Shown here piece after piece: positions 12,583 through 64,000 of a DNA stretch of 64,000 bases. The stretch lies in contig OZ024808.1 in NCBI GenBank assembly GCA_964017045.1, positions 9,541,784 through 9,605,783 of the forward strand, written 5' to 3'. The position numbers and the translations under genes are program-made. Position 1 is the first letter of the stretch, and each line of letters begins with the position of its first letter. Below the pieces are notes generated by a model, which had not been told where the DNA came from, did not search any database, and saw nothing but the letters and a program-made list of their open reading frames with translations. This DNA is from Omphiscola glabra (Eukaryota > Mollusca > Gastropoda > Lymnaeidae).

Positions 12583-14071
12583 ATGTTAAGGTTGAGAAAA
12601 CGCTGCGTCTTGAAGAGAGTTCTGTATACTTCCTTGTTGTTCTTCACCGCCACGTTATCGTACAACGCGTTGTCGGTTGCACTAAGGGAGCCCGCCCACC
12701 CCGCTGATCAGACGCGGCATCGCCTTTTGGTGGACCTCGGTGGGAGAATTTCGACAGAGGACAGTGCGTCCACGTGGAGCGTGGGCCAGGACGACGTGGC
12801 CGAGGTACAACGGGAAGTTGTGGAAGCGAATAAAATCCTTTTCAACGAAGAGGACGCCTCGGAGCTCAAAGAAGGTGCTTCTGAGTTCAAAGAAGGCGTC
12901 TCTTATCTCAAACAAGACGCTTCTCAGCTTAAAGTGAGCACTTCTGAGTTCAGAGAAGGCGCTTCTGAGTTCAAAAAGGGCGCTTCTCAGCTCAAAGGAG
13001 ACGCTTCTAAATTCAAAGTAGGCGTCTCTCATCTCAAGCAAGGTGCTTTTCAGCTCAAAGATTTATTCAAACACTTATCTATAGACTTTGGATCAGCTCG
13101 GAGACCTACTGTCACGCCAGGTCCCATGACATTACCCCAGCTAGAAACTGTCACGTTCAGATTAGAAGACAGCGTGACGTTTAACTTCAAAGAAGAGTTG
13201 AAACCAGCCGGAAATTTACCCCAGAATACCGCCGGGAACCCACAAGGGCTGGCTGCCTCGGGTCAAAGTTCAAGACCTTTACGAGCACCCGAGCTACTTA
13301 CAACCACGCAGCAATACAAGCCACCATCAGATAAGGCTGCCAATACATTGTCTAAATTGCCCGAGCCACCACCTGGTAAGGTTCTCACTACAGTGTCTAA
13401 AGTACCCCATCCCCCGCCTGATAATATTCCCCCTACGGTGTCTAAAGTATCCCATCCCCCGCCTGATAATATTCCCCCTACAGTGTCTAAAGTACCCCAT
13501 CCCCCGCCTGATAATATTCCCCCTACAGTGTCTAAAGTACCCCATCCCCCGCCTGATAATATTCCCCCTACAGTGTCTAAAGTCTCCCAGCCCCCGCCTG
13601 ATAAGGTTCCCACTACAGTGTCTAAAATACCCCAGCCCCCACCTGGTAAGGTTCCCACTACAGTGTCTAAAGTACCCCAGCCCCCGCCTGATAAAGTTCC
13701 CAGTATCGTGTCTAAAGTACCCAAAACCTCACATGATAATGTGACTCATTCCGTGTCTAAAGCACCCCAACCTCGTACCAAAAAGTTCATCCCTTCCATG
13801 TCTAAAGTACTTCCTCCCCCTCCACACCCGGTCCAACCTACCCTGTCAACACGCACAGCCCGACATACAAAACATGTTTCCGTCTCATCGAACAACGAAA
13901 AGGGGAATAAGCCCCTCGAGGTCAGCGTGCCCCAGAACACAAACAGACCTCGATGTGACATTATCGATGAACCAATCCCCTGTGATCTCAAAGACACGAC
14001 GGCCTACGATTGGTCGGATCTGAACCTCAGCGCCACGCAAGATCTTTGCCCTAAAAGGCCCGCAACAACAA
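12583..14071 (+). CDS. GT7 exon 1: tail, membrane anchor and long stem
   Basis: 496 codons plus one nt; donor A|GTAAGT at 14072. The N-terminus [19 protein letters not shown] is a basic tail leading into the anchor. Residues ~94-160 repeat a short charged motif ([21 protein letters not shown]). Residues ~246-416 hold about ten 15-residue proline-rich units ([15 protein letters not shown]). The exon ends in the first conserved GT7 segment (DLCPKRP). A possible acceptor CAG at 12560-12562 suggests a 5' untranslated exon upstream. Confidence 0.88.
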
Positions 14072-17000
14072 GTAAGTTTACTCTGTTTTTTTTAAACATT
14101 TTATTTGGAAAAAAGGGAGGGGAGGGGGCTGATTTGTAATGATTTATAGATCGAAAACAGTTCTTGTATTTCAAGAGAAAACGTTTTCCAAGTAAGTTTT
14201 ACAGGAGCGACATCTCACGGACAATATTTCAGAAACAACACACATCCTTAAAAAAACACATTTTATCAACGTTTCGGCGCGGTAAAAGATATGCACACGA
14301 TCCAAACCTTAATGAACTTTATTGCACCCCTGACAAGGAATTATTTGTTAATAATATGATCAGGGTGGCTGATTCCATTGATCTATTTAAAGGTATATTT
14401 GATGGAGTACATGTAGTGACTGGCTTTGATGGAGTAGATGTAGTGACTGGCCTTGATGGAGTACAGGTAGTGGCTGGAATTTATGGAACTATTGGAACAT
14501 ATGTATCGACTAGCCTGAAATAATCCATCGTATGTGATATCGATATGTCAAAGAGGTGGAATTCTACAATACAATTTTATTTTTTTTACTAGTTGGGGCA
14601 GCGCAACCATTTTGCGCGTGTACAATACTTTCCGTGTCACGCTTTGAGCTCTATTTCAAATATCACTGCTAGGAACTTTAATGGACAAGCTCTCACTGCA
14701 TTAAAATTGATCTTATGTTCTTATAGTACATTTTTCGGGGAAAAGGGGTTTGAAAAAAGCCTTGTCCGCCTCTGGGTGGCACTAACCCTACCTACGCCAC
14801 TGGTGTTAAGATAATTAAAATGTTATAAAAAAAAATAAATAAGTATGGCCGACATCAAAAGAAACTTGCTTAGGTACAATAGATCTTTTATTACAGTTAA
14901 GAGAAGAACATGCTTTGATCAATGTAGATAACACAGGGCATAAAGAAAGTAAAGAAGAACGTGCCGATGACATTACATGCTATCGAAATTAATTTGTTAA
15001 TTTTGTTTGTTTGTCAGTTGGAAGATTTACGCCACTTACGAATGCCCACCCCCATCACGAGCTGGTGGCCATGTTTGTCGGCATGCAAGATGGCGGCCAC
15101 TACACGCCTCGGATGTGTACGCCGATTGAAAAGACCGCCATCATCATCCCGTACAGGAACAGATGTCGCCATCTGTACACACTTCTACCCAATCTGATTC
15201 CGATGTTGATGAGACAAAATGTGGACTTTACCATCTTTGTTATTCAACAGGTAAGAAGTAGACAATCGTTGAACGGGTGACCGACATATATTCTTATTAT
15301 TTAAAATTTGTTATTGTTCTGGAAATGAACAGTTTTTTTTTTTTTTTTTTTTTAAATGAACACCATGTTGACTTTTACATGGTAACTGTTTTTTTAATGA
15401 CAATTTGGCTTGATGTTTAATTATATACTTCAGTGGTTCTGAGAATCTAGTCTTTGGACTCTTGCTGTGACATGAGAAATGATCTAAGCTATGGAATGTG
15501 ACAATTCATACTTAAATTTTCCCTTAACTCTGAACGATTAAATAGGTCTATGTCAAAAATGCACAACATTGCGTCACGGTATCATTTCGTCCAGAGGTAC
15601 AGATGATATTATAGTAGGGTCCATTCACTTTTGCGGTTAAATGAGATATAACCCAGATGCAAGGAAATTATTCCTAACTCATTTTCCCATGCACGCCATT
15701 GTGATATATTTAATTGAAGTCAATGGAATGATTTCCGTTAAAAGTAGAGTGCTTAGAGCAGTGGTCGGCAAACTCATTAGTCAAAAGTGCCAAAAATCAT
15801 AAGCAGGACGATTAAATTTTGTTGAGAGCCAAATTTCGTTTTCAACCATGTTTTTTGGAGTCAAAATCGATTTGTGGCCAACCGGCCGAGCCACACTCAG
15901 TTAACTAAAGAGCCGAAGGCGGCTCGCGAGCCGCGATTTGCCGACCACTGGCTTAGATGTTTAGCCTGTGTCGATCTAATTCGAGCAGGGGCATGCAACT
16001 CTTAAAACCCATTTGTTTTCATTACTGACGTCCCCTATTAACTGTGACATTCCCCCCCCCCCCCCAACCACCCTCCAACCACCGTTAATTCAGGACGTTT
16101 GCTTTCATTCTTAGAAGGGTCTACAAGAGGGAGAAGCACTCTCTGGCGATTGAATGTCTAGACTTTCTGTTGTGGAGGGCAATTTCTCCCTCAATATAAA
16201 TATGAAGGTCGACTGTGACCGGCAGACAGAAGGTCGACTGTGATCGGCAGTCAGATGATTGACTGTGCCCGGCAGACAGAAAGTCGGCTGTGACCGGCAG
16301 TCAGACTTACGAGACTTACCAGACTGACAGGACCGTAAAAGACCTACTGGATTGTTATTAATATGTGTACCTTTCTAATATCATAATGTTTCTTTTGCTG
16401 GGCTGTAAGATAATATAATTTTTGTTCGATTTTGTATTTTTATATCGACCTAGTAGTATAATTAAATTGAACATTGTTAATATCACTAGCATTTGTATCA
16501 ATTTTCGTTGTATACCGGTTGTCAGCCGTTTTGCTACGCATAGTTCATTCAACGAGGCCAAATCTTACAAAAAGATAAAATTTGTGATACCATATAACAG
16601 TACGTAACAGTCTGTATAGGCCATTAGATCTACTACTTATCATGACAAGACTCCACCATTGAACACACGCTTGTGCATCCCCAGTCCAGCAAAGGCACGT
16701 TCAACAAAGGGATCCTGTTCAACGCCGGATACCTCGAGGCCCTGAAGCTGGACAACTACGACTGCTTCATCCTGCACGACGTCGACATGATCCCCGTGGA
16801 CGACAGGAACATGTATAGGTGCAACACCAGGGGACCTACTCATTTCTCATCAGCGGTCAACAAATTTAATTACAGGTAGAAAACATGATACTAACTGGGG
16901 CAACTACTAAGATCCCCTTAAAGTGTTAACACTATTGAGGTTTGTCCACCGAGGCTAATCATGGGTGTAAGAAGAAACTATTTCAGACAGTTTTTTTCCT

Positions 17001-20000
17001 CAAGCATCAATCAACTTCGATGCCAATTGCTTTTAATTAAGCAGATGTTCCCAAACTTTTTGAGTAAGGTACCATTGCTGCTCCCAGGTTTTCTCATAGG
17101 GCCCTATTTCAAATTTTAACAAGTGAGCTGCGACAATGCAAAATAGTTTGTTTTTTCGCCACTCTCACTCCGCGACGTCCTTGTCACGAAGCCCTGGCTC
17201 TCAGAGGGTGCCGCGGAGCACAGTTTGGGCACCTGTTTAAAAAGCGTTTGACACTGTAAGGCATTGCCGACGGGACCGTGTTGATCACACAACGGCATAC
17301 GTCCCAAGTTGGGAGAATGTTATTCTACGTGTGGCTTGCAGCCCTTAGCTTTTTACCAGCGTTGTTAATTGTGTAGCAGGCCAAACCCATATTTGGTTTT
17401 TGATATGTGAGATTTTTGTGAACCTGGCAACTTCCAATGTTGAAATCTATCAGTGAGAGTTTTGTGAACCCTGGCAACCTCCAATGTTTAAATCTATCAG
17501 TGAGATTTTTATGAACCCTGGCAACCTCCAATGTTGAAATCTATCAATGAGATTTTTGTTAACCTGTCTGTATTAATGTTCTTTTTGTGTCAAAGCCATC
17601 GTCTGTATTAATGTTCTTTTTGTGTCAAAGCCATCGTCTGTATTAATGTTCTTTTTGTGTCAAAGCCATCGTCTGTATTAATGTTCCTTTTGTGTCAAAG
17701 CCATCGTCTGTATTAATGTTCCTTTTGTGTACAAGTCATTGTCTGTATTTATGTTCTTTTTATGTACAAGTCATTGTCTGCGTTAATGTTCTTTTTTGTG
17801 TACACACCATTGAATTTATTAGTTAGAGTTCTCTTTTGTGCGTGCAAGCCCCTGTTTTCATAACTAATATTGTTTGTGTACACGTCACCGTGTACACTAC
17901 TGACGCCGTCTTCCCGCCAATCTTGTTGACCCCAGGAATCTCTACGACGACCTCTTCGGCGGCGTGGTCGGCTTCACGCGTGACCAGTTCCATGGGATCA
18001 ACGGGGCGTCCAATCTGTACTTCGGCTGGGGCGCCGAGGACGACGATTTGAGAAACAGGTGAGGCGGATGCACTGGTCCTATATTATTATAGGATAGTTC
18101 AGTGTTGATAAACGAATCAGATCAGTGGTTTTAAACCTTCCCAATGCCGCGATCCTTTATACAGCTCCCAACTATAAAATTATTTTCATTGCTACTTTGT
18201 AAATATGTGTTTTACGAGGGTCTCAGGCGACCCCTGTGTAAGGGTCGTTCAACCCCCCAGGGGTCACGACCCACAGGTTGAGAACCACTGTCTTATTATT
18301 AGTGCTAGTATTCCCGTATACAAATTTGGTGATTTGTTTTGGAAGTGTTACAAGGGGTTAATTTTAAAAACAGATGGTTGTCTTCATTTCACTGCTTACA
18401 CCAGGGTCGTCAACAAAAACATGACGCTTTGGAGAAGGACCCCCAGGTACGGCGTGTACGACATGGTCAACCACACCGCTGTTAGTGATATAGGATGGGA
18501 ACCCAATCCAGACAGGTAGGTTGAGGAATTTAATCGAGACAGGTAGGTTGGGGAATTTAATCGAGACAGGTAGGTTGGGAATTTATCTAGATGTATTGGG
18601 GAAAGTATATGGCTCTGTCTGTTCTCACATTTAAAGCTTATGGCTCTGTCTGTCCTCAGATATAAAGTATATGGCTCTGTCTGTCCTCAGATATAAAGTA
18701 CATGGCTCTTTCTGTCCTCAGATTTAAAGTATATGGCTCTGGACGGGCCCGACAGGACATAGACGGGCTCAACTCACTGACCTACAAATTGACCGGGCTG
18801 AGAACCACCGCCCTCTACACGTGGCTAGGGATAAGTTTTGACAGAAAAGTCGTTTTATCGGTGAGAACCGTTGTCCAATCACCCGACTTCAACCACTTCG
18901 GTGATGTATGCATGAGATAACATCTTAAGGACCACTGAATTTCATAAAAAGCCAATGAACATTAATACTTTTGGAAAATGCGTCTGCTATAATATGAGAA
19001 CCACTGTAACCGACACACACTGAAGGAACCGTCGATCCAAATGCCTTATTACAGCATTGTTCGTGTTCGAATGTCTGTCTATGCCGCCACCGTATTCAAC
19101 TTAAATCCACCCGTTTTAAGGATTCGCCTAAATATAACCGCACTCTTTAACGGCTTTTTTTGGTGACTTTACCAGTGAGAATATTCGGAAAGAATGAAAA
19201 TTATAATAATAATAATAATAATACTAATACTAAAAATAATAATAATAATAATTTCATAGAGGTTAAACTTTTCATGATATAATATAAGAGAAAATAACCA
19301 ATTGATCAAATACCTTACAGATTAATTAACTTATTGATGAATGACCTACATATTAATTAACCTATAGATGAATGACCTACAGATCAAATAAGCTACGGTT
19401 CAAATAAGCTACAGATTAAATAAGCTACAGATTAATTAAGCTACAGATTAAATAAGCTACAGATCAAATAAGCTACAGATCAGATAAGCTACTGATCAAA
19501 TAAGCTACTGATCAAATGAGCTACAGATCAAATGAGCTACAGATTAAATAATCTAGCGATCAAATATGCTACAGATCAAATAAGCTACTGATCAAATAAG
19601 CTAAAGATCAAATAAGCTACCATCAAATAAGCTAAAGATCAAATAACATAACCTAAGGACCAACATATTTTTCATTCTTCTTTAGCTTAATGCGATGCTT
19701 AACAAGTCGCTTAATGCGATGCTTATTCAGGTGAATATTAAAAAGAGTCATAGTAGATGTAGATGTTCGGCCGAAAAAGTGGAACACGACCGAATCCTAA
19801 CACCGATGTATAAATAGAATAAATATTTCGGTGACGATTGAAATATATAGCGGGTGTAAATGCGGTTGTAGCTTTGACACAGAAATTATTGATGTAGGTA
19901 TAGAGCAGATAGATAGATAAATAGATAGATAGATGATAGAAAGATTGGTAGATAGATTGATAGATTAATAGATAGATAGATTAGATATATAGATAAATAG

Positions 20001-20033
20001 ATAGATAGAATAGATAGATAGATATATAGATAA

Positions 20034-20067
<34 letters not shown>

Positions 20068-20089
20068 CGATAGATAGATAGATAGATAC

Positions 20090-20122
<33 letters not shown>

Positions 20123-20391
20123 GAGATGGACGGACGGACGGACAGACAGACAGACAGATAAATAGATAGATAGATAGACAGACAGATAGACGGACAGACA
20201 GACTGACACATCCTATACATCAATGTAGTTAGAGATGTATACAAAAAAATTGCACATTGCATTAGACATACACTATACCCACACACTTTTGTTGTCTTCA
20301 CCCCCATCTTCAGACGGTACCCAAGCAACTGCGAATGGGACGACAGTTCAACGAGAGCTACCTATACTCCAAGTTCAACATCGTCTACTGA
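12583..20391 (+). CDS. beta-1,4-galactosyltransferase-family enzyme (GT7), seven exons
   Basis: Predicted type II Golgi enzyme of about 787 residues transferring Gal, GalNAc or GlcNAc from the UDP-sugar to GlcNAc. Exons: 12583-14071, 15018-15250, 16685-16875, 17936-18058, 18405-18515, 18722-18860 and 20314-20391; all boundaries are GT/AG and phases match throughout. Features: basic N-terminus and membrane anchor (residues ~13-32), repeat-rich stem (~94-160 and ~246-416), CPKRP cysteine, IPYRNR (~540-545), HDVDMIP metal site (D606, D608), [13 protein letters not shown] (~668-675), metal-binding MVNH (M699, H702), then EPNPDR. The residue matching bovine B4GALT1 Tyr289 is Leu644, so the donor may not be galactose. 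Human B4GALT1 is about 400 residues; the extra length is all stem. The ATG at 12583 is chosen over the in-frame one at 12523, which lies in a likely intron tract. Confidence 0.92.
14396..14480. repeat. 27-bp repeat in GT7 intron 1
   Basis: Three to four units of GATGGAGTACATGTAGTGAC. The 119-codon ORF over it (14164-14523) has no recognisable domain and sits wholly inside the intron. Confidence 0.7.
15018..15250 (+). CDS. GT7 exon 2
   Basis: Acceptor TTTGTTTGTCAG, donor CAG|GTAAGA. It encodes [17 protein letters not shown], the UDP-binding IPYRNR and the FTIFVIQQ strand. It enters after a split codon and leaves in phase 0. Confidence 0.9.
15759..15950 (+). mobile_element. hAT element with CAGTGGTCGGCAAAC terminus
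   Basis: 192 bp bounded by CAGTGGTCGGCAAAC and GATTTGCCGACCACTG, flanked by 8-bp duplications GCTTAGAG/GCTTAGAT (15751-15758 and 15951-15958). Non-autonomous and located in GT7 intron 2. Confidence 0.88.
16205..16310. repeat. 27-bp repeat, four units, GT7 intron 2
   Basis: Units of GGTCGACTGTGACCGGCAG with small changes. Confidence 0.8.
16685..16875 (+). CDS. GT7 exon 3 (DVD metal-binding motif)
   Basis: Encodes [17 protein letters not shown], then the YDC...DVDMIP block and MYRC. The two cysteines match a conserved disulfide of B4GALTs. It ends two nt into a codon before GTAGAA. Confidence 0.9.
17405..17562. repeat. about 50-bp repeat, three units, GT7 intron 3
   Basis: Units contain TGAACCCTGGCAACCTCCAA and GAAATCTATCAGTGAG. 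Confidence 0.8.
17564..17830. repeat. 35-bp repeat, about seven units, GT7 intron 3
   Basis: Units contain GTCTGTATTAATGTTCTTTT and GTGTCAAAGCCATC. They degenerate toward the exon 4 acceptor about 100 bp further on. Confidence 0.85.
17936..18058 (+). CDS. GT7 exon 4 (catalytic GWGAEDDD)
   Basis: 123 nt, phase kept on both sides. It encodes [12 protein letters not shown], then [12 protein letters not shown], the most conserved GT7 motif. The donor reads AACAG|GTGAGG. Confidence 0.9.
18123..18290 (-). mobile_element. SPIN-like hAT element, copy 3, GT7 intron 4
   Basis: Bounded by CAGTGGTTTTAAACCTTCC and AGGTTGAGAACCACTG with a GGCGACCCCTGTGTAAGGGT interior. I could not find a convincing target duplication, so it may be older or its edges altered. 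Confidence 0.78.
18405..18515 (+). CDS. GT7 exon 5
   Basis: Encodes the stretch with YDMVNH (metal-coordinating Met and His) and EPNPDR. Donor GACAG|GTAGG. Two further copies of this donor follow in tandem at 18538 and 18564. Confidence 0.88.
18511..18590 (+). repeat. tandem copies of the exon 5 splice donor
   Basis: GACAGGTAGGTTG occurs at 18511, 18538 and 18564 with a shared GGAATTTAATCGA spacer (26-27 bp period). The first is the real exon 5 end; the others are intronic duplicates carrying a potential donor. Confidence 0.82.
18625..18721 (+). repeat. tandem copies of the exon 6 splice acceptor
   Basis: A 31-bp unit containing GGCTCTGTCTGTCCTCAG and then the first exon 6 bases (ATATAAAGTATAT) is repeated. 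CTCAG ends at 18659, 18690 and 18721, with a degenerate CTCAC at 18628. The final copy is the acceptor used in the gene model. Confidence 0.85.
18722..18860 (+). CDS. GT7 exon 6
   Basis: 139 nt, the same length as its decayed counterpart at 27821-27959. Encodes [19 protein letters not shown], the GT7 DGLNSL motif. Three CTCAG acceptors lie in tandem just before it; the last (18717-18721) keeps the frame. Confidence 0.88.
19203..19655. repeat. (AAT)n followed by a 16-bp AAGCTACAGATCAAAT array
   Basis: AAT triplets at 19203-19252, then about 20 units of AAGCTACAGATCAAAT and variants up to 19655, in GT7 intron 6. Confidence 0.85.
19905..20212. repeat. (GATA)n/(GACA)n/(GACG)n microsatellite
   Basis: About 300 bp of tetranucleotide repeat in GT7 intron 6, ending about 100 bp before the exon 7 acceptor. 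Long I/Y/L/S ORFs over it are repeat artefacts. Confidence 0.95.
20314..20391 (+). CDS. GT7 exon 7 (C-terminus)
   Basis: 78 nt including TGA, encoding [18 protein letters not shown] and a short tail. The exon is confirmed by the equal-length homologue at 29768-29845 (TVPKNLRMGESYHDSFLI). Confidence 0.85.
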   Translation, partial: TVPKQLRMGRQFNESYLYSKFNIVY

Positions 20392-22253: not shown

Positions 22254-22551
22254 TTAGTCCCTAAACAAAAGGCCAAGTCCGAAATAATATTATAATCGGT
22301 TGAAGATTGGGGGATTGTCTATTTAGACCATATCCATTTCGAGAACCACTCCAGTGTTTAAACCGTGGATCATGATCAACTTTCCAGGGACGACCCCGGC
22401 TAATTCGAAAACCATTTATAAAAGGGTCACGATCAACTTTCCAGTGACGAATCAACCTAATGCGAGAACAATTCCGATATTTGAAACAGGTCATGATCGA
22501 CTTGCGACGGCCGAACCAACCAATAAGCATGAAGTTGAAATGTTGAATATA

Positions 22552-22845
22552 ACAAGAGTAAAATGCTAAAGACATCAAGAGTAAAATGCTGAAGACATCA
22601 AGAGTAAAATGCTGAAGACATCAATAGTAAAATGCTGAAGATATCGAGAGTAAAATGCTGAAGACATGAAGAGTAAAATGCTTAAGACATCAATAGTAAA
22701 ATACTGAAGATATCGAATATAAAATGCTGAAGACGACAAGAGTAAAATGTTGAAGACGACAAGAGTAAAATGTTGAAGACGACAAGAGGAAAATGTTGAA
22801 GACGACAAGAGTAAAATGCTGAATACATCAAGAGTAAAATAAAAT
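22552..22845. repeat. 23-bp array (AGTAAAATGCTGAAGACATC)
   Basis: About 12 units with GACGACAAG and GATATCGA variants. Confidence 0.85.
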
Positions 22846-22940
22846 GGTTGCCATAAGAGATAACGGGTGCCACTGGCCAGGGTTAGTATTGTCGATAACT
22901 CCAATCACACAAAAAAAAAAGAAGAAGAAAAAAGCTTAAG

Positions 22941-23452
22941 AATGTTATTGAACAGGTGAGAAATGGAATGTTATTGAACAGGTGAGAAATATAATTTTAT
23001 TGAACAGGTGAGAAATGGAATGTTATTGAACAGGTGAGAAAGGGAATGTTATTAAACAGGTGAGAAAGGGAATGTTATTGAACAGGTGAGGAATAGAATG
23101 TTATTGAACAGGTGAGAAATAAAATGTTATTGAACAGGTGAGAAATGGAATGTTATTGAACAGGTGAGAAAGGGAATGTTATTGAACAGGTGAGAAAGGG
23201 AATGTTATTGAACAGGTGAGAAATGGAATGTTATTGAACAGGTGAGAAATGGAATGTTATTGAACAGGTGAGAAATGGAATGTTATTGAACAGGTGAGAA
23301 ATGGAATGTTATTGAACAGGTGAGAAATGGAATGTTATTGAACAGGTGATAAATGGAATGTTATTGAAAAGGTGATAAATAGAATGTTATTGAACAGCTG
23401 AGGAATGGAATGTTATTGAACAGGTGAGAAATGGAATGATCATGGACAGGTG
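22941..23452 (+). repeat. 26-bp minisatellite matching the GT7 exon 2 splice donor
   Basis: About 20 units with GTTATTGAACAGGTGAG as core. The intact gene's exon 2 ends GTTATTCAACAG|GTAAG and continues AAGTAGA; the repeat continues AAATGGA. By eye 20 of 24 positions agree across the junction. All but about three units keep a consensus CAG|GTGAG donor. The position matches where exon 2 of the duplicate should lie. Confidence 0.8.
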
Positions 23453-23689
23453 AGAAATAAAAAGAAAATTCTCATCTTTTACCTGCAAAACTACCGATGG
23501 CAAAATATCCCTAGCTGGTTCTTGTGATGATTTCATCACGACCTTTATCGTTGATCACCCTAAAGAGCAGCCACCGGGTGATGTCCCCCTTCGGTCCAAG
23601 GCGATGCTTCTAAATTGGCATACTCGCCGCAATGATATTGGAGAAAGTGTTTTCTAGTCTCATGTTTGTCAATTATCCAGATCGACATG

Positions 23690-24790
23690 TCATTTCGTCC
23701 GACCTAATCGTCGTTTAGCCTGATCCACATGTCCAGTTCTACGTGCCGTTTAGCCTGATCTAATGTCATTTAGCCTCGCCTACATGACCTTTAGCTTGAC
23801 CATCATGTCATTTAGTCTGGCAAACATGTCATTCAGCCTGGCCTAAATGTATTTTAGCTTGCCTACGCAAACATTTAGCCTGCATTACATGACATTTAGC
23901 CTAGACTAATGTAATTTAGCCTGGAATACAAGCAATTACTTAGCATTTAACCTAGCCTAAGCATCATTTAGCTTTGTCTCGATATCAGATAGCCTGAACA
24001 ATATATCACTTAGCCTGAACAATATATCACTTAGCCTGAACAATATATCACTTAGCCTGAACAATATATCACTTAGCCTGAACAATATATCACTTAGCCT
24101 GAACAATATATCACTTAGCCTGAACAATATATCACTTAGCCTGAACAATATATCACTTAGCCTGAACAATATATCACTTAGCCTGAACAATATATAACTT
24201 AGCCTGACCAACATATCACTTAGCCTGACCAACATATCACTTAGCCTGACCAACATATCACTTAGCCTGACCCACATATCACTTAGCCTGAACAACATAT
24301 CATTAAACCTGACCAACATATCACTTAGCCTGACCCACATATCACTTAGCCTGAACAACATATCATTAAACCTGACCAACCTATCACTTAGCCAAAACCA
24401 GCATATCACTTAGCCTGACCAGCATATCATTTAGCCTGACCAACATATCACTTAGCCTGACCAACATATCATTAAACCTGACCAGCATATCACTTAGCCT
24501 GACCAGCATATCATTTAGCCTGACCAACATATCACTTAGCCTGACCAACATATCATTAAACCTGACCAACATATCACTTAGCTTGACCAACATATCATTT
24601 AGCCTTACCAACATATCACTTAGCCTGACCAACATATCACTTAGCCTGACCAACATATCACTTAGCCTGACCAACATATCACTTAGCCTGACCAACATAT
24701 CACTTAGCCTGACCAACATATCATTTAGCCTGACCAGCATATTATTTAGCCTGACCAACATTTCACCTAGCCTGACCGCCAACTCCATTC
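23690..24790. repeat. 21-bp minisatellite upstream of duplicate exon 3
   Basis: More than 40 units of CCTGACCAACATATCACTTAG (AATATATCACTTAG variant), strongly diverged at the left edge and homogeneous in the middle. The last degenerate unit (CCTAGCCTGACCG) runs to within about 20 bp of the exon 3 acceptor. Each unit contains a CTGAC branch-point-like word and a terminal AG. Confidence 0.9.
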
Positions 24791-24800
24791 GTTACCTCAG

Positions 24801-24990
24801 TCCACACCGGGATCGTTCAACAAAGGGATCCTGTTCAACGCCGAATACCTCGAGGCCCTGAAGCTGGACAACTACGACTGCTTCATCCTGCACGACGTCG
24901 ACATGATCCTCTTAGATGACCGGAACATGTACAGGTGCAACCAACTGGGCCCAACTCACTTCTCCGCCGCCGTCGACAAGTAAACTACGG
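24801..24990 (+). pseudogene. duplicate GT7 exon 3 with one-base deletion
   Basis: Acceptor TTACCTCAG at 24792-24800, donor GTGAAA at 24991. Encodes [17 protein letters not shown] and [15 protein letters not shown], then GTCGACAAG runs into TAA. It is 190 nt where the intact exon is 191, so a single base was lost near 24981. Confidence 0.88.
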
Positions 24991-25062
24991 GTGAAACAGC
25001 CGGGGGGGGGGCCCTGTTTCGGGGGCAGGGTGGGGCTCGAAGTAAGCCATCAAGAAATAGCA

Positions 25063-25142
25063 CATTCCCGGGGGTGGGGGGTTGGGGGTGGGGGTAGGGG
25101 TTGGGGTGGGGGGTGGGGGTGGGGGTTGGGGGTGGGGTGGCG
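25063..25142 (+). repeat. G-rich GGGGTT-type tract
   Basis: About 80 bp of G runs separated by T, A or TT, with many G3-G6 runs on the + strand. This would be a strong G-quadruplex candidate. It lies directly after duplicate exon 3. Confidence 0.85.
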
Positions 25143-25304
25143 TTAATTAAAACTTTTACGGGTCACTGCTGACGCATTCACTTACTCCTTAAAATCGGGG
25201 AGTACTTCCACACGTTGTTGGTCTTTTTTTTTTTTACCTACTTTTGATCATTACCCATTTGACTCATTGAAAAAATGTACGATACGTTTTTAATAACAAC
25301 AATT

Positions 25305-25515
25305 TATGATGACAACTTTGTTGTATATTGTACCATCCAACTAAAAAACTTTGTTGTATATTGTACCATGCAGTAAATAAATTTGTTGAACCTTGTACCA
25401 GCCAGATAACAACTTAGTTGTATATTGCACCATCCAACTAACAACTTTGTTGTATATTGTACCATCCAACTAACAACTTTGTTGTATATTGTACCATCCA
25501 ACTAACAACTTTGTT
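25305..25515. repeat. 32-bp array (ACAACTTTGTTGTATATTGT)
   Basis: About seven units with ACCATCCAACTA. It passes straight into the exon 4-derived array. Confidence 0.85.
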
Positions 25516-25850
25516 GACCTGAGAAACAGGTTCGTTGATGATGACCTGAGAAACAGGTTTGTTGATGATGATCTGAGAAACAGGTTTGTTGATGATGACC
25601 TGAGAAACAGGTTCGTTGATGATGACCTGAGAAACAAGTTCGTTGATTATGACCCGAGAAACAGGTTTGTTGATGATGACCTGAGAAACAGGTTCGTTGA
25701 TGATGACCTGAGAAACAGGTTCGTTGATTATGACCCGAGAAACAGGTTTGTTGATGATGATCTGAGAAACAGGTTCGTTGATGATGACCTGAGAAACAGG
25801 TTTGTTGATGATGATCTGAGAAACAGGTTCGTTGATGAATTCATTTGTTG
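25516..25850 (+). repeat. 27-bp minisatellite matching the GT7 exon 4 end and splice donor
   Basis: Twelve units GATGACCTGAGAAACAGGTT plus CGTTGAT. They translate as DDLRNR then FVD, the same DDLRNR that ends exon 4 of the intact gene, at the correct place between exons 3 and 5. The rest of exon 4 was not found. Most units keep AACAG|GTT, a weakened donor. Confidence 0.85.
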
Positions 25851-26256
25851 ATAGTTACCTGATTTTGGAATCAAGTAAAAAAAAGTCAGATCCCTTTAAA
25901 AAATAATTTTTAAAAATATTTAAAAAAAATCTTGATACACCGCATCTTAAAAATAATTTACAAAAGGGGCGGGGTTTATTTTTTTAGGCGTAAGAATAAC
26001 TTCCCTTGCCGTAATGAACGCCCTGATGCTTAATTTTCGCAGCGTTAAAATGCAATAATTTAACTGAACGCGACCCATTAAAAAAAAAAAATTGAAATTG
26101 TAGATAGTTGAGCGTCCAGTTCATCGTAAGCAAGGAATGCTGACACATCTTGACGATTAAACATTTGGTCTGAAACAGTCAGGCTGAGCCCGTCACTGTA
26201 TTCTTCGAGCTTATCTCAGGCCTGCTGTGTTCTAATCATTGAGTCCTCTTCCGCAG

Positions 26257-26356
26257 AGCCGTCCACAAGAGCATGACGTTGCTGAGAAAAAACAAAAGCC
26301 ATGCGGTCTACGACATGATTAAACACAAGCAAAGGATTCGAACCCAACCCAGACAG
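26257..26356 (+). pseudogene. duplicate GT7 exon 5, frameshifted
   Basis: Acceptor CTCTTCCGCAG, donor GACAG|GTGAAA. Starts VHKSMTLLRKNKSHAVYDM with IKH, matching the intact exon, but is 11 bases shorter before the GAACCCAA block, so EPNPDR falls out of frame. Confidence 0.85.
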
Positions 26357-26559
26357 GTGAAAAGTCTTGTTAATAGTTCCACACCACACCCCCCCACCCA
26401 CTTTTTTTTTTTTTGCAAGGTGCTCTGTTTTCATTATCTTCAACACATGGTTTGTCATTGAATCGCGGGAATCTATTTATAGAACATCGGGTACCGTCGG
26501 GCCAATCGCATATTAAGATATTTATAAATCATCTTGGTTTTCCCGTTTGGTCAATCTCT

Positions 26560-27040
26560 CAGCAGTTACTTTATGATAACTCTATGATAACTCCATGATT
26601 ACTTTGTAATACCTAATATGGTTAATCCATGATAACTCTGCGATTAATGTATGATGACGCTATGATTACTTTATGATAACTCTATGATAACTCCATGATT
26701 ACTTTATAATAACTAATATGGTTAATCCATGATAACTCTGTGATTAATGTATGATTACGCTATGATTACTTTATGATAACTCTATGATAACTCCATGATT
26801 ACTTTATAATACCTAATATGGTTAATCCATGATAACTCTGTGATTAATTTATGATGACGCTATGATTACTTTATGATAACCCTTCGATTACTTTATGATA
26901 ACACTATGATAACTCTATGACTATAATACTTTATATACCTATTTGATTATCCCAAGATAACTCTATAATTACTCCATGATAACTCTATGTTTACTTCGTG
27001 ATAACTTTATGGTTACTTTATGATAACTCTATGATAAACC
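26560..27040. repeat. ATGATAACTC array with about 107-bp higher-order period
   Basis: Short units of TTTATGATAACTCTATGATA grouped into three larger blocks, each with CCTAATATGGTTAATCC. Confidence 0.8.
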
Positions 27041-27184
27041 TATAGTATATTTTAGTTGAAAGACAACTATAAAATTATGAAGTCTGGAAATTTAAAAAAA
27101 ACAACAAACTTTGTCCAACTTTACCTAAGTTTGTCCAACATCTTCAGAGCCTTGTCCAACTTTGTCCACATACGTGTAACTAGA

Positions 27185-27820
27185 TCTATACGGTATACGT
27201 TTGTCCAGCTTTGTCCAAATACGTCTAACTAGATCTATGTTTGTCCAGCTTTGTCCAAATACGTCTAAGTAGATCTAGGTTTGTCCAGCTTTGTCCAAAT
27301 ACGTCTAACTAGATCTATGTTTGTCCAGCTTTGTCCAAATACGTCTAACTAGATCTATGTTTGTCCAGCTTTATCCACATACGTCTAACTAGATCTATGT
27401 TTGTCCAGCTTTGTCCAAATACGTCTAACTAGATCTATGTTTGTCCAGCTTTATCCAAATACGTCTAACTAGATCTATGTTTGTCCAGCTTTATCCAAAT
27501 ACGTCTAACTAGATCTATGTTTGTCCAGCTTTATCCACATACGTCTAACTAGATCTATGTTTGTCCAGCTTTATCCAAATACGTCTAACTAGATCTATGT
27601 TTGTCCAGCTTTATCCAAATACGTCTAACTAGATCTATGTTTGTCCAGCTTTATCCACATACGTCTAACTAGATCTATGTTTGTCCAGTTTTGTCCAAAT
27701 ACGTCTAACTAGATCTATATTTGTCCAGCTTTATCCAAATACGTCTAACTAGATCTAGGTTTGTCCAGCTTTATCCACATACGTCTAACTAGATCTATGT
27801 TTGTCCAGTTTTGTCCACAG
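27185..27820 (+). repeat. 40-bp minisatellite ending at the exon 6 acceptor of the duplicate
   Basis: About 16 units of TTTGTCCAGCTTTATCCA plus CATACGTCTAACTAGATC. The last partial unit, GTTTGTCCAGTTTTGTCCACAG, cut here into GTTTGTCCAG and TTTTGTCCACAG, supplies the polypyrimidine tract and AG of exon 6. Confidence 0.88.
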
Positions 27821-27959
27821 GAGAAAAATTTATGGCTCCGGGCGTGCAAGACACAACATTGACGGCCTCAATTATGTGGTGTACAATGTAACGAATTTTA
27901 TAACCTCTCTTTTGTATACCTGGTTGGAGATCGGCTTTGATGAGGCCACCATTTTGTCA
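27821..27959 (+). pseudogene. duplicate GT7 exon 6
   Basis: 139 nt, same length and phase as the intact exon. Encodes KIYGSGRARHNIDGLNYV and a YTWLEIGFD strand. The donor TCA|GTGAGG is intact. Confidence 0.88.
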
Positions 27960-27984
27960 GTGAGGGCAGCTTATTTTCTATGGT

Positions 27985-28258
27985 TACCGGAAATTTGATC
28001 GACGGAAAATTGATCGACGGTAATTTGATCGAACGGAAGTTTGGTCGAATCTTTTTTTCAGTTCAGACGTTAAAATGTTCGTCAAATTTCCCTTTGAACG
28101 CACTATACTATATAGTAAAACAAAATAATGCTTTCAAAAAGAAATTTGACGCAAAATTTTAACGTATAAACTAAAAAAACGATTTGACCAAATTTCCGTT
28201 CGATCAAATTTCCGTCGATCAATTTTCCGTCGACGAAATTTCTTTCGATCAAATTTCC
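27985..28258. mobile_element. inverted-repeat element with CCGGAAATTTGATCG ends
   Basis: The left arm CCGGAAATTTGATCGACGG and further GATCGACGG units recur inverted on the right, ending CGATCAAATTTCCGG. Each arm of about 60-80 bp holds internal direct sub-repeats. The centre has CAAATTTCCCTTTGAACGCA. No clear target duplication. Confidence 0.7.
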
Positions 28259-28405
28259 GGATACGATTTTCTATCGATTAAAATAGACACAAACAATCTG
28301 TGTCACTATAACAATATATATTAAGCTTTAATCATAATTTTACAATACACATAAGTAAACGTTTCAGCACTGCCTTCATCAGTACAACAAGACATACACA
28401 TAAGT

Positions 28406-28502
28406 ATAAAACAAATTTACTTAATATATATATATAGAAATATCATATTCTGTTGTTATAGGATATTTCTATATATATATATATTATGTAAATTTGTTTT
28501 AT
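28406..28502. repeat. long A/T-rich hairpin
   Basis: ATAAAACAAATTTAC...GAAATATC is mirrored by GATATTTC...GTAAATTTGTTTTAT, giving a stem of roughly 38 bp with a loop of about 20 bp. Confidence 0.75.
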
Positions 28503-28866
28503 ATGGACCCGAGTCATGAAATGGGACCCAAGTCATTGATTGGGACCCACGTCATTGAATGGGGACCCAAGTCATTGAATGGGACCAACGTCATTGATTG
28601 GGACCCACGTCATTGAATGGGATCCAAATCACTGAATACGACTCAAGTCATTGAATGGGACCCTAGCTGGGACGAGCTGATCCAGCGAACAAGATTCATG
28701 TTTCTGCTTGCATTTTTCATTGGTAAATTAGGTTCATGAACGTCACCACGGGCGGTAAACGATCAAATAGTTTTTGTTGACTGATAACAAAGGTGCACTG
28801 ATAACAACGGTGCACTGATAACAATGGTGCACTGATAACAACGGTGCACTGATAGCAACGGTGCAC
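28503..28866. repeat. 21-bp and 17-18-bp short arrays
   Basis: About eight GGGACCCAAGTCATTGAATG units (28503-28670), then five ACTGATAACAACGGTGC units (28787-28866). Confidence 0.8.
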
Positions 28867-29767
28867 TCAGCTCTCAATTGTTATACGGCCCCATTCAACA
28901 CTTTTTTTTTCATTATTGACACACGTTTTGAAAAAAAAAAAACAATTAATATAATACATTCCCTTTTCTTCGTGTGTTTCTGGCTGGCTGGCTAAAATAA
29001 TCCCATCACTTCTTGTCGACCTGTCGAGCTGAAACTTGGCACATAGATTCGTTGCCGATGATGACACATTATATAAATTTTCAACCCCCCCAAAAAAAAA
29101 TATTTTCCCCCTGTTTTTCAAAGGGAACATGAAGGAAATATGATGACACTGATTTCACGAAATAAAATTCCCGATAACTGCCCTAAATGAGATTCTTAAA
29201 AAATTTCGCAAGTGCGTTTGGTGCGCATAATTATCTTTTGTTTTTATGAAATAGTTGGTGAATGAAATCTGGCTTGTAAAATCTGGTGGGACATTAGCAT
29301 ATTAATATAAAATAATTGTAAAAAATGCATATAGATGATTTATACGAAAAACTTTGTTTTTTTTTTTTTTTAGAGTTTGTTGAAAATTGATTTTCTTAAA
29401 AATCTGGCAACATTCAATTTCTCACATTCAAAAATATTATTACTTTGTGCAAAATATCTTTTGAAGCGTCTATCTAAATATGCTTTCTGTCCTTCTCGAT
29501 ACATTGTTTTCGTATTGAAATCCTATCCGTTTCCACGAATGGCCCTTTTAACCGTCTGTCTCTATATAACGTAACACATTTTCCCATATATTCTTTCCGA
29601 ATTAAATCCTTTTACTTTGTACTAACGGTCGTTTGGACCGTCTGACTAATCCTCTCTGAAACACGTATGGTCCCATGCAATTATTTCTTTTATAATAATT
29701 ATATAAACTTGAATTTTGTGTTCAGTAATTCTTAAATTCTGTTCCTTTTTTTACCTTTTTATTTCAG
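28867..29767. other. no gene seen; intron of the decayed GT7 copy
   Basis: A/T-rich sequence lacking recognised motifs; it ends in a T-rich tract and CAG acceptor at 29765-29767. Confidence 0.5.
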
Positions 29768-29845
29768 ACAGTGCCGAAAAATCTCAGAATGGGAGAATCC
29801 TATCACGACAGTTTTTTGATTTTGAAATTCAAGGAACTCGAGTAA
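29768..29845 (+). pseudogene. duplicate GT7 exon 7
   Basis: 78 nt including TAA. Encodes TVPKNLRMGESYHDSFLI and a short tail; same length and start as the intact exon 7. Confidence 0.85.
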
Positions 29846-46129: not shown

Positions 46130-46497
46130 TAACATATTGTATCACTAGTGGTACATGTGCACCAACATATTGTTATACTAGTGGCACAGGTGCACCAATT
46201 TATGGTACCACTAGTGGCACAGGTGCACCGACATAGTGTACCAATAGTGTCACAGGTGCACCAACATATCGTACCACTAGTGGCACAGGTGCAACAACAT
46301 ATTGTACCACTAGTGTCACAGGTGCACCAACCAATTGTACCACTAGTAGCACAGGTACACCAACAAATTGTACCACTTGTGTCACATATACAACAACATA
46401 TTGTAACACAAGTGGCACAGGTGCACCGACATAGTGTACCACTGGTGTCACAGTTACATCAACATAGTGTAACACAGGCGGCACACAGGTGCGCCAG
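46130..46497. repeat. 33-bp array A (CACTAGTGGCACAGGTGCAC)
   Basis: About 11 units with CAACATATTGTAC. As 33 is divisible by 3, 11-residue-periodic ORFs appear on both strands; they are not taken as genes. Confidence 0.92.
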
Positions 46498-50639: not shown

Positions 50640-51105
50640 ACCAAGGTGCACCAACATATTGTACTACTAGTGGCACAGTTTTACTGACACATTGTACCAA
50701 TGGTGTCACAGGTTCATCGACATATTGTACCGCTAGTGGCACACGGGCATCAATATATTGTACTACTAGTGGCACAGCGTGCACCAACATATTGTACCAC
50801 TAGTGTCACAGGTACACACATATTGTACCCCTAGTGTCACAGGTACACAGACATATTGCAACAATGGTGTCACAGGTGCATCGACCTATTGTACCGCTAG
50901 TGGCACACGTGCATCAACATATTGTACCACTAGTGGCACAGGTACACCAACATATTGTACCTCTAGTGGCACAGGGGGCACCAACATATTGTACCACTAG
51001 TGTCACAGGTACATCGACATATTGCAGCTCTAGTAGCACAGGGGGCACCAACATATTGTACCACTAGTGTCACAGGTACATCGACATATTGTACCACTAT
51101 GTTTA
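50640..51105. repeat. 33-bp array B, same unit as array A
   Basis: About 14 units sharing ACATATTGTACCACTAGTGT and CACAGGTACA with the array at 46130. Several units carry GCAAC or GGGG variants. Confidence 0.92.
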
Positions 51106-51189: not shown

Positions 51190-54100
51190 AACTGTAGTCG
51201 TAGCTCTGGATGTAGTTGTGCTTGTTTTTGGTAGTTGTATTGACATTTAACCTATATTTATAGTTGTAGTTAATCTATTTTTAGATGTAGTTGTAGTTGC
51301 AGCTGTAGCATTTGACATAGCTTTACCTGAAGCTTTGGTTTTTGTTTAAGTTGTAGATGTAGTTTTAGATGTAGTCTTAGATGTAGTTTTAGATGTAGCT
51401 GATGTAGTTGCAGTTGTAGATGGAGTTTTAGATGTAGTTTTATATGTAGCTGATGTAGATGTAGTTGTAGATGTAGATTTAGATGTAGCTGATGTAGTTG
51501 CAGTTATAGATATAGTTTTAGATGTAGTCTTAGATGTAGTTTTAGATGTAGCTGATGTAGTTGCAGTTGTAGATGTAGTTTTGTAGTAGTTGTAGATGTA
51601 GTTGTAGATATAGATGTAGTTTTAGATGTAGCTGATGTAGTTGCAGTTGTAGATGTAGTTTTATATGTAGTTGTAGATGTAGTTTTAGATGTAGTTTTAG
51701 ATGTAGCTAATGTAGTTGCAGGTGTAGATTTAGTTTAAGATGTAGCTGATGTAGTTGCAGTTGTAGATGTAGTTTTATAGGTAGTTGTAGATGTAGTTGT
51801 AGATGTAGATGTAGATGAAGTTTTAGATATAGTTGATGTAGTTGCAGTTGTAGATGTAGTTTTAGATGTAGTTGTAGATGTAGTTGCAAATGTAGTTTTA
51901 GATGTAGCTTATGTATTTGCAGTTGTAGATATAATTTTAGATGTAGTTGTAGATGTAGTTTTAGATGTAGTTTTAGATGTAGCTGATGTAGTTGCAGTTG
52001 TAGATGTAGTTGTAGATGGAGATGTAATTTTAGATGTAGTTGTAGATGTAGTTTTAGATGCAGATTTAGATGTAGTTTTAGATGTAGCTGATGCAGTTGC
52101 AATTGTAGATGTAGTTTTAGATGTAGTTGTAGATTTAGATTTAGATGTAGTTTTAGATGTAGATTATGTAGTCGCAGTTGTAGATGTAGTTTTAGATGTA
52201 GCTGATGCAGTTGCAGTTGTAGATGTAGTTTTAGATGTAGTTGTAGATGTACATTTAGATGTAGTTTTAGATGTAGATTATGTAGTCGCAGTTGTAGATT
52301 TAATTTTAGATGTAGCTTATGTATTTGCAGTTGTAGATATAGTTTTAGATGTAGTTGTAGATGTAGTTTTAGATGTAGTTTTAATGTAGCTGATGTAGTT
52401 GCAGTTGTAGATGTAGTTTTCTATGCAGTTGTAAATGTAGTTGTAGATGGAGATGTAATTTTAGATGTAGCTGTAGATGAAGTTTTAGATGTAGATTTAG
52501 ATGTAGTTTTAGATGTAGATGATGTAGTCGCAGTTGTAGATGTAGTTTTAGATGTAGTTGTAGATTTATTTGTAGATGTAGTTTTAGATGTAGCTGATGT
52601 AGTTGCAGTTGTAGATGTAGTTTTAGATGTAGTTTTAGATGTAGCTGATGTAGTCGCAGTTGTAGATGTAGTTTTAGATGTAGTTGTAGATGTATTTGTA
52701 GATGTAGTTTTAGATGTAGCTGATGTAGTCGCAGTTGTAGATGTAGTTTTAGATGTACTTGTAGATGTATTTGTAGATGTAGTTTTAGATGTAGCTGATG
52801 TAGTTGCAGTTGTAGATGTAGTTTTATAGCAGTTGTAGATAAATTTGTAGATGTAGATGTAGTTTTAGATGTAGTTGTAGATGTAGATATAGATGTAGTT
52901 TTAGATGTAGCTAATGTAGTTGTAGTTGTAGATGTAGTTTTAGATGTAGTTGTAGATGTATTTGTAGATGTAGTTTTAGATGTAGCTGATTTAGTTGCAG
53001 TTGTAGATGTAGTTTTATAGGTAGTTGTAGATGTAGTTGTAGATGTAGATGTAGTTTTAGATGTAGTTGATGTAGTTGCAGTTTTAGATGTAGTTTTAGA
53101 TGTAGTTGTAGATGTAGATTTAGATGTAGTTTTGGATGTAGCTGATTTAGTTGCAGTTGTAGATGTAGTTTTCTATGCAGTTGTAGATGTAGTTGTAGAT
53201 GGAGATGTAATTTTACATGTAGTTGTAGATGAAGTTTTATATGTAGATTTAGATGTAGTTTTAGATGTAGCTGATGCAGTTGCAGTTTTAGATGTAGTTT
53301 TAGATGTAGTTGTAGATGTAGATTTAGATGTAGTTTTAGATGTAGATGATGTAGTCGCAGTTGTAGATGTTTTTTTAGATGTAGTTGTAGATTTATTTGT
53401 AGATGTAGTTTTAGATGTAGCTGATGTAGTTGCAGTTGTAGAGGTAGTTTTATATGTAGTTGTAGATGTAGATGTAGTTATAGATGTAGCTGATGTAGTT
53501 GCAGTTGTTGATGTAGTTTTAGATGTAGTATTAGATGTAGTTTTAGATGTAGTTTTAGGTGTAGCTGATGTAGTTACAGTTTTAGATGTAGTTTTAGATG
53601 TAGTTGTAGATGTATTTGTAGATGTAGTTTTAGATGTAGCTGATGTAGTTGCAGTTGTAGATGTAGTTTTAGATGTAGTTGTAGATGTATTTGTAGATGT
53701 AGTTTTAGATGTAGCTGATGTAGTTGCAGTTGTATATGTAGTTTTATATGTAGTTGTAGATGTAGTTTTAGATGTAGTTTTTATGTAGCTGATGTAGTTG
53801 CAGTTGTAGATGTAGTTTTCTATGCAGTTGTAAATGTAGTTGTAGATGGAGATGTAATTTTAGATGTAGCTGTAGATGAAGTTTTAGATGTAGATTTAGA
53901 TGTAGTTTTAGATGTAGATGATGTAGTCGCAGTTGTAGATGTAGTTTTAGATGTAGTTGTAGATTTATTTGTAGATGTAGTTTTAGATGTAGCTGATGTA
54001 GTTGCAGTTGTAGATGTAGTTTTAGATGTAGTTTTAGATGTAGCTGATGTAGTCGCAGTTGTAGATGTAGTTTTAGATGTAGTTGTAGATGTATTTGTAG

Positions 54101-63100: not shown

Positions 63101-64000
63101 GCAGTTGCAGTTGTAGATGTAGTTTTAGAGTAGTTGTAGATGTAGATTTAGATGCAGTTTTAGATGTAGCTAATGTAGTTGCAGTTGTAGATGTAGTTAT
63201 AAATGTATCTGATGAAGTTGCAGCTGTAGATGTAGTTTTATAGGTAGTTGTAGATTTAGTTGTAGATGTAGATGTAGTTTTAGATGTAGTTGCAGTTGTA
63301 GATGTAGTTTTAGATGTAGTTGTAGATGTAGTTATAAATGTAGTTTTAGATGTAGCTTACGTATTTACTTTACTAGATGTAGTTGTAGATGTAGTTGTAG
63401 ATGTAGTTTTAGATGTTGCTGATGTAGTTGCAGTTGTAGATGTAGTTTTATAGGTAGTTGTATATGTAGTTGTAGATGTAGTTTTAGATGTAGTTTTATA
63501 GTAGTTGTAGATGTAGTTTTAGATGTAGTTTTAGATGTAGCTGAGGTAGTTGCAGTTTAAGATGTAGTTTTAGATGTAGTTGTAGATATAGATTAAGATG
63601 TAGTTTTAGATGTAGCTAATAAAGTCGCAGTTGTAGATGTTGTTTTAGTTGTAGTTATAGATGTAGATTTAGATGTAGTTTTAATGTAGCTGATGTAGTT
63701 GCAGTTGTAGATGTAGTTTTCTATGCAGTTGTAGATGTAGTTGTAGATGGAGATGTAATTTTAGATGTAGTTGTAGATAAAGTTTTAGATGTAGATTTAG
63801 ATGTAGTTTTACTGTAGCTTATGTAGTTACAGTTGTAGATGTAGTTTTAGATGTAGTTGTAGATGTATTTGTAGATGTAGTTTTAGATGTAGCTGATGTA
63901 GTTGCAGTTGTAGATGTAGCTTTATAGCAGTTGTAGATACATCAGATATAGCTTATGTAGTTGCAGTTGTAATTGTAGTTTTAGATGTAGGTTTAGATAT
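51190..64000. repeat. hexamer-based satellite (TAGATG/TAGTTT/TAGTTG) with kilobase higher-order units
   Basis: At least 12.8 kb built of TAGATGTAGTTTTAGATGTA and TAGTTG, TAGCTGATG, GCAGTTG variants, running off the window end. Landmarks such as GGATGTAGCTGATTTAG recur at about 53132, 55022 and 56756, and CTATGCAGTTGTAAATG at 52421, 53820 and 55710, so copies of 1,399-1,890 bp repeat nearly exactly. The + strand is almost free of C. Valine/aspartate-rich ORFs of 200-300 codons result from the 6-bp period and are not genes. Confidence 0.95.

Follow-up and report, generated by a model that had tools for sequence, protein, structure and literature searches.

Tandem arrays of exon-junction sequence in GT7 genes of the snail Omphiscola glabra

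A gene that has lost two of its exons and carries a minisatellite at the place of each raises the question of whether the arrays were made from the missing exons, and whether their making and the loss of the exons were one process or two. Such a gene lies in a 64,000-nucleotide stretch of the genome of the snail Omphiscola glabra (the window; positions 9,541,784 to 9,605,783 of contig OZ024808.1, here C16, of a 745-Mb genome). The window contains two copies of a seven-exon GT7 (beta-1,4-galactosyltransferase-like) gene: an intact one, copy A (12583-20391), and a decayed one, copy B, which spans 22.9-29.9 kb and retains exons 3, 5, 6 and 7, each as a single copy. In this repeat-rich genome, sequence comparison indicates that exon ends and splice sites have been repeatedly copied into long tandem arrays, often beside a whole exon. 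The arrays are quite probably minisatellites that began as short tandem duplications across an exon-intron junction, with exon loss as a later and separate event. Coordinates refer to the forward strand of the window, unless another strand, locus or contig is given.

Source of the arrays in copy B

Array 1 (22940-23458) consists, according to Tandem Repeats Finder (TRF), of 20.0 copies of a 26-bp unit, and array 2 (25515-25838) of 12.0 copies of a 27-bp unit. The unit of array 1 contains the end of exon 2 (..VIEQ), the donor and the start of intron 2, the body of the exon being absent; the unit of array 2 contains the end of exon 4 (DDDLRNR) and the first intron-4 bases of a gene of the type found at L021, one of the GT7 loci compared. 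The original prediction had described about 20 and 12 units in place of these two exons, with the four remaining exons in single copy, and comparison with copy A bears this description out. Sequence comparisons of copy B with copy A, homologues and GT7 loci gave no match to exon 2 or exon 4 except the arrays.

Within window positions 1-51300, array 1 finds its best plus-strand match at the donor of exon 2 in copy A, with a score of 23, the next place scoring 17; on the minus strand, a match at 29401-29460 scores 21. When the unit was shuffled with the donor core kept, none of 4000 shuffles reached 23 at the exon-2 junction and 6 of 4000 reached it at any of 12 junctions. Read in codons, the unit gives NVIEQ followed by the donor, and VIEQ is the commonest form among homologues (21 of the 43 in which a script found the motif, 120 being scanned); in the codon shuffle test the unit shares only 2 residues with the exon ends of copy A. 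Over 497 bp, array 1 has 95% identity to an array at L055 that adjoins a complete exon 2. Searching the genome with its DNA locates the same array at further GT7 loci of C16, with weaker matches (64-76%) on seven other contigs (C2, C4, C8, C9, C13, C14 and C18). These comparisons confirm that array 1 represents the donor junction of exon 2 in a GT7 gene.

The same type of array occurs beside whole exons. Four paralogues (L055, L056, L057 and L058) have a complete open exon 2 that continues directly into a 26-bp array, the real donor being its first copy. Copy number varies between paralogues in this one assembly: L055 has 25 copies and L056 has 5.5, partly worn, and the arrays of L057 and L058 extend beyond the fetched ends, matches covering C16:10827483-10829557 in pieces. 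The exon-2 donor of L017 is at a two-copy stage, the second copy being partial. In copy A, exon 2 (15018-15250) ends in ATTCAACAG before GTAAG, and both the sequence and the alignments reveal a worn second copy of the unit in intron 2 (15266-15281, GTTGAACGGGTGA), exactly 26 bp past the junction. Given these cases, array 1 began beside whole exons, and the exon loss in copy B is a separate event; the array is a long-standing trait of this donor across the subfamily and did not result from the loss of the exon. The original prediction had proposed that junctions are amplified while the rest of the exon is removed, which is not supported for exon 2, because four paralogues keep the complete exon beside the array.

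By nucleotides, array 2 scores 14 at the exon-4 donor of copy A, which is not the best place in the window (17 elsewhere), and this score is reached by 26 of 4000 shuffles at the exon-4 junction and by 585 of 4000 at any of the 12 junctions. In codons, however, its unit reads DDDLRNR, which are the seven residues that close exon 4, and all four base differences are synonymous; in the codon test, none of 4000 shuffles shares seven residues, the maximum being 5. When copy B is compared with the GT7 loci by BLAST, the units of array 2 align with the donor of exon 4 at L021, with 90-97% identity across 29 bp. The match of 25807-25855 to L021:1609-1657 (84%) indicates that an L021-like intron 4 continues past the last unit, its start at 25839-25855 being homologous to L021. 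Weaker matches to array 2 (71-73%) lie on C1 and C7. By the matches to L055 and L021, the two arrays represent the junctions of two missing exons in the right order, as originally predicted. The similarity goes beyond the generic donor consensus.

The acceptor side of exon 4 is also an array. About six units of 32 bp (25312-25516) match the end of intron 3 at L021, at up to 97% over 35 bp, and stop one base before exon 4; at L021 itself, this intron end contains an imperfect partial repeat of the sequence found in the 32-bp array. The acceptor and donor arrays of copy B meet (joint at 25510-25519) within TTTGTTG (25510-25516), a word present in both units, and a shared 7-mer occurs in 1.7% of shuffles. 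Exon 4 is 123 bp long in all 25 loci counted (donor minus acceptor, the script having searched near that place). Because the 32-bp array corresponds to the exon-4 acceptor region, the site now consists of an acceptor array and a donor array without the 123-bp body; exon 4 is thus still represented at its collinear place, by many copies of each of its two junctions but without the body.

At L021, the paralogue that matches best for exon 4, no array spans either the acceptor or the donor of that exon, so the exon-4 arrays arose in copy B's own line after its split from L021, whose exon 2 probably lies, by position, in L056. Inheritance of array 2 from the exon-4 donor array of L024 (77% match) was considered and rejected, because the L021 donor fits the units better and has no array.

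The reading frame of copy B is not intact. Besides the absence of exons 2 and 4, exon 3 (24801-24990) has a net loss of one base relative to copy A and a stop or frameshift near its end, and exon 5 (26256-26356; 78% to the exon-5 region of L021) is 10 bases shorter than in copy A, with a broken frame; exon 6 (27821-27959) and exon 7 with its stop (29768-29845) are open in the comparison with copy A. About 95 bp of exon 3 (24815-24910) are nearly identical between the two copies, the values for exons 6 and 7 being only 59% and 54%, and this patch looks like gene conversion. A 40-bp array (27199-27817) stops 3 bases before exon 6 and is possibly another acceptor-side array. In intron 6, a 19/58-bp array (28505-28663) aligns weakly (score 17) to the acceptor and start of copy A exon 7, which could be chance.

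Copy A encodes 787 codons and a stop, with GT at every donor and AG at every acceptor. Exon 1 (12583-14071) is an open frame from ATG, in phase with exons 2-7; exon 2 matches GT7 homologues, and the gene model continues with exons 3 (16685-16875), 4 (17936-18058, ending DDDLRN(R) before GTGAGG), 5 (18405-18515), 6 (18722-18860) and 7 with the stop (20314-20391). The PF02709 match in exon 4 (C16:9559705-9559845) scores 55.6 bits, above the curated cut-off of 23. The protein has 829 homologues at E<=0.001, and nearly all of the 120 listed have PF02709 and PF13733. The 40 PF02709 matches listed genome-wide include a cluster on C16. Protein matches suggest a pond snail close to Lymnaea stagnalis, the translation of L023 exon 4 having 100% identity with a Lymnaea protein across 41 residues.

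Repeats of other types were also observed. Exon 1 of copy A contains two in-frame tandem arrays (12863-13061, 21-bp unit; 13330-13769, 45-bp unit), in what is presumed to be the enzyme's stem region. A common 33-bp unit (AACATATTGTACCACTAGTGGCAC..) makes up two arrays separated by about 4 kb (46131-46475 and 50644-51099), and the right end of the window is a 12.6-kb satellite-like array (51349-63998) of the 12-bp unit AGTTGTAGATGT. Downstream of GT7 exon 4, L017:2240-2841 contains about 100 copies of telomere-like CCCTAA. In L058:384-551, the inner units of the exon-2 array have AACAAGTGAG in place of AACAGGTGAG, so that the inner donors differ from the first donor.

Arrays at other GT7 and myosin junctions

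For the counts that follow, splice sites were placed by a script using motif anchors and its own, untrained consensus weights, and the exons 2 of paralogues were tied to exon-4 loci by their position on C16. Labels J41 to J53 denote adjacent fetched stretches joined in pairs (L041 with L042, etc.). The exons of L011, which looks intronless, exon 3 of J51, a second exon-2 row of J45 and the exon-4 donor of J49 were dropped, and the exon-2 donors of L017, L057 and L058 lie outside the 68 donors counted.

Arrays cover 12 of these 68 GT7 donors and include 13 or more exon bases at 8 of the 12; among 62 acceptors, 4 are covered (exon 3 of J49, exon 4 of L029, exon 6 of copy A and, with 2 exon bases, exon 6 of L026). 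Weak members of the donor set are J41 exon 3 (1 exon base), J41 exon 2 (4) and L026 (5); no second copy of the stretch from -10 to +6 was found at J41 exon 3 or L026. In copy A, the array at the exon-5 donor (18491-18585; period 27) has a first unit made of the last 25 exon bases and GT, and the array at the exon-6 acceptor (18602-18741; 31-bp unit) extends 20 bases into exon 6.

At the exon-4 donor, arrays with different units occur in 6 of 25 loci, representing 5 lineages. A complete exon 4 with a donor array of another unit is found at L024, L023, L027/L028, J41 and L026 (5 exon bases only), and a complete exon 4 with an acceptor array at L029. When the intron portions of these exon-4 units are compared, only L027 and L028 align; that of L024, which is too short, was judged by eye. 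Like boundary minisatellites, the GT7 arrays have tandem units of about 10-100 bp that span an exon end and a splice site, the acceptor match of the 32-bp array in copy B being one base short.

Outside this family, we examined myosin genes (35 regions, containing 37 of the 81 listed hits); cytochrome P450 genes, mostly long single open frames, proved unsuitable as a control family. Arrays span 2 of 37 myosin donors, L071 (49 exon bases) and L090 (27), and 2 of 37 acceptors, L081 and L091; the array at the L086 donor, which by eye begins 6 bases inside the intron, is not counted as spanning. At L090, neighbouring hits fall on one and the same part of the myosin profile, so exon duplication may be involved there. 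At L071 (minus strand, 356-661), the last 49 bases of the exon and the donor start the array (period 104 by TRF, units of about 54 bp by eye), which makes it a junction array outside the GT7 family.

As to frequency, 34-41% (about 37%) of GT7 intron positions at least 90 bases from a junction lie in arrays, against 16-18% of donors and 5.5-6.5% of acceptors. The coverage of myosin donors is 8% as computed, or 5% (2/37) without the misplaced L086, against 17-20% in intron interiors, and 1 array left edge falls in the last 30 exon bases of the 37 donors, which is no excess. Neither is there an excess at GT7 acceptors (4 against 4.87 expected in the first 50 exon bases), and the difference between donors and acceptors is not significant (8/66 against 3/62, P 0.21). 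Genome-wide, there are 8444 CAGGTRAG pairs at array spacing and 7496 pairs of the reversed control pattern; with 40739 and 42908 single sites, respectively, pairs per single site are 1.19 times the control. Pairs of AAGGTAAGT number 1009 against 1213 for the reversed control, as raw pairs and not per single site. Note that such pair counts are not independent, because pairs inside one array are counted many times; the result is mixed and points both ways. Donor-spanning arrays are real and recurrent, but the data do not establish that junctions are preferred to intron DNA.

Array birth and exon loss

In the course of events that we propose, a short tandem duplication would span an exon-intron junction and would be tolerated because the first donor stays in place; at L024 and L055, a frame read on beyond the first donor runs into a stop after roughly one unit or less (by eye). 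The array would then grow by slippage or unequal exchange. The stages observed for exon 2 are two copies (L017, and worn in copy A) and then about 5 to tens of copies beside the complete exon in paralogues. In copy B, released from constraint, the exon bodies beside or between arrays would be lost by recombination, which for exon 4 would most simply be a deletion between the two flanking arrays at the shared TTTGTTG. Array birth and exon loss would then be two events, the loss being a by-product of arrays beside exons in an unconstrained gene. We think that junctions are hit mainly since the genome makes minisatellites almost everywhere and those spanning a donor are tolerated, rather than by special targeting.

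Several points weigh against this account. The BLAST comparison with the GT7 loci found no acceptor-side trace of exon 2 in copy B, and arrays flank exon 4 on both sides in none of the 25 loci, so that the intermediate before exon-4 loss is not seen; coverage of the paralogues consists of exons 2-5 within fetched stretches and not of whole genes. In addition, array left edges fall in the last 30 exon bases of the 68 GT7 donors 12 times, against 3.19 expected (P 1.3e-4). As L055 and L056 had been fetched owing to array 1, the test was repeated without both, giving 10 edges at 66 donors against 3.09 expected (P 0.0014); counted as lineages with at least 5 exon bases, there are 7 (P 0.038). This excess hints at a preference beyond tolerance.

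Donors could indeed be preferred sites of minisatellite birth, made so by transcription- or splicing-linked breaks or by short repeats inherent in exon ends. The left-edge excess, the differing units at exon-4 donors of five lineages and the ratio of CAGGTRAG pairs all favour such targeting, which we nevertheless consider unlikely: GT7 donors are covered about half as often as intron interiors, myosin donors are covered less than their introns and have a single left edge, AAGGTAAGT pairs are fewer than in the control, and donors do not differ significantly from acceptors. The junction-seeded birth suggested by the original prediction is weakly supported, with the modest left-edge excess for it and the donor coverage, the myosin genes and the mixed motif pairs against it. 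Equally doubtful is a fuller version, in which many paralogues independently acquire arrays at the same preferred donor, and recombination between arrays at the two ends of an exon then deletes it; if it were true, array birth at junctions would be a route of exon loss and gene decay. A reverse order, with the exons lost first and leftover junction scraps amplified later in the pseudogene, would fit the absence of copy B's exon-4 arrays from L021, but it is improbable given the arrays of the array-1 type beside complete exon 2 in four paralogues and the complete exon 4 with donor arrays in five other lineages and with an acceptor array at L029. Finally, unrelated intron minisatellites with a donor-like motif might resemble junctions by chance in a region so dense in arrays (30% of window positions 1-51300 and 53% of 22500-29800), the more so as the plain nucleotide score of array 2 fails to reach significance when all 12 junctions are considered, and array 2 also aligns at 69-75% with array-1-type units of L057. 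We rejected this idea on the shuffles, the codon test with DDDLRNR and the paralogue matches; 90-97% matches to particular paralogue junctions, the collinear order and the complete-exon cases make it extremely improbable, and for array 1 it is refuted by L055-L058.

Significance and known systems

Minisatellites rarely reveal their origin. The source of the snail GT7 arrays can be read because conservation keeps exon ends recognisable, unlike introns, and a single genome offers paralogues at each stage, from two copies through a few to tens and on to loss of the exon. Therefore, the birth and growth of minisatellites, splicing with many near-identical donors, and a possible promotion of exon loss by flanking arrays become directly testable.

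Intron gain via tandem AGGT duplication was reportedly described by Zhuo et al. in PNAS in 2007. Tandem duplication of an AGGT segment is an intron-gain model (the Rogers model; PMC4974935, in the passages available), and in the snail arrays, too, a stretch containing splice signals has been duplicated in tandem. Unlike in that model, they multiply existing donors and acceptors; they sit at shared junctions, and no new intron is shown. The available passages on intronic minisatellites of earthworms (PMC12783039) describe no junction-derived units. A literature search, with subscription papers mostly outside its scope, returned no title or start of an abstract on exons reduced to junction arrays.

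The original prediction had taken junction-derived minisatellites to be undescribed, and in this respect it was mistaken, since human genes are known to carry minisatellites where exons meet introns. According to the parts of PMC2812944 consulted, duplicated human genes in segmental duplications have internal tandem repeats of minisatellite type at such boundaries, with 27 intron modifications; like the snail arrays, these have units of about 30 bp at boundaries of recent paralogues and vary between paralogues. They change splice structure and were scored via transcripts and novel introns. In the portion of PMC2630376 available, the human cystathionine beta-synthase gene CBS has a 31-bp variable number tandem repeat, c.1444_1467+7, in 16-21 copies, which by its name spans an exon end and the donor (24 exon and 7 intron bases), so that many copies lie beside a working exon. 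CBS is a single polymorphic human locus, whereas the snail has arrays at many GT7-family loci, acceptor arrays and a dead copy without the exons. Compared with the human segmental duplications, the snail differs in having complete exons beside 5 to tens of copies of their junctions, units that vary among paralogues at one donor, and an exon reduced to two fused junction arrays.

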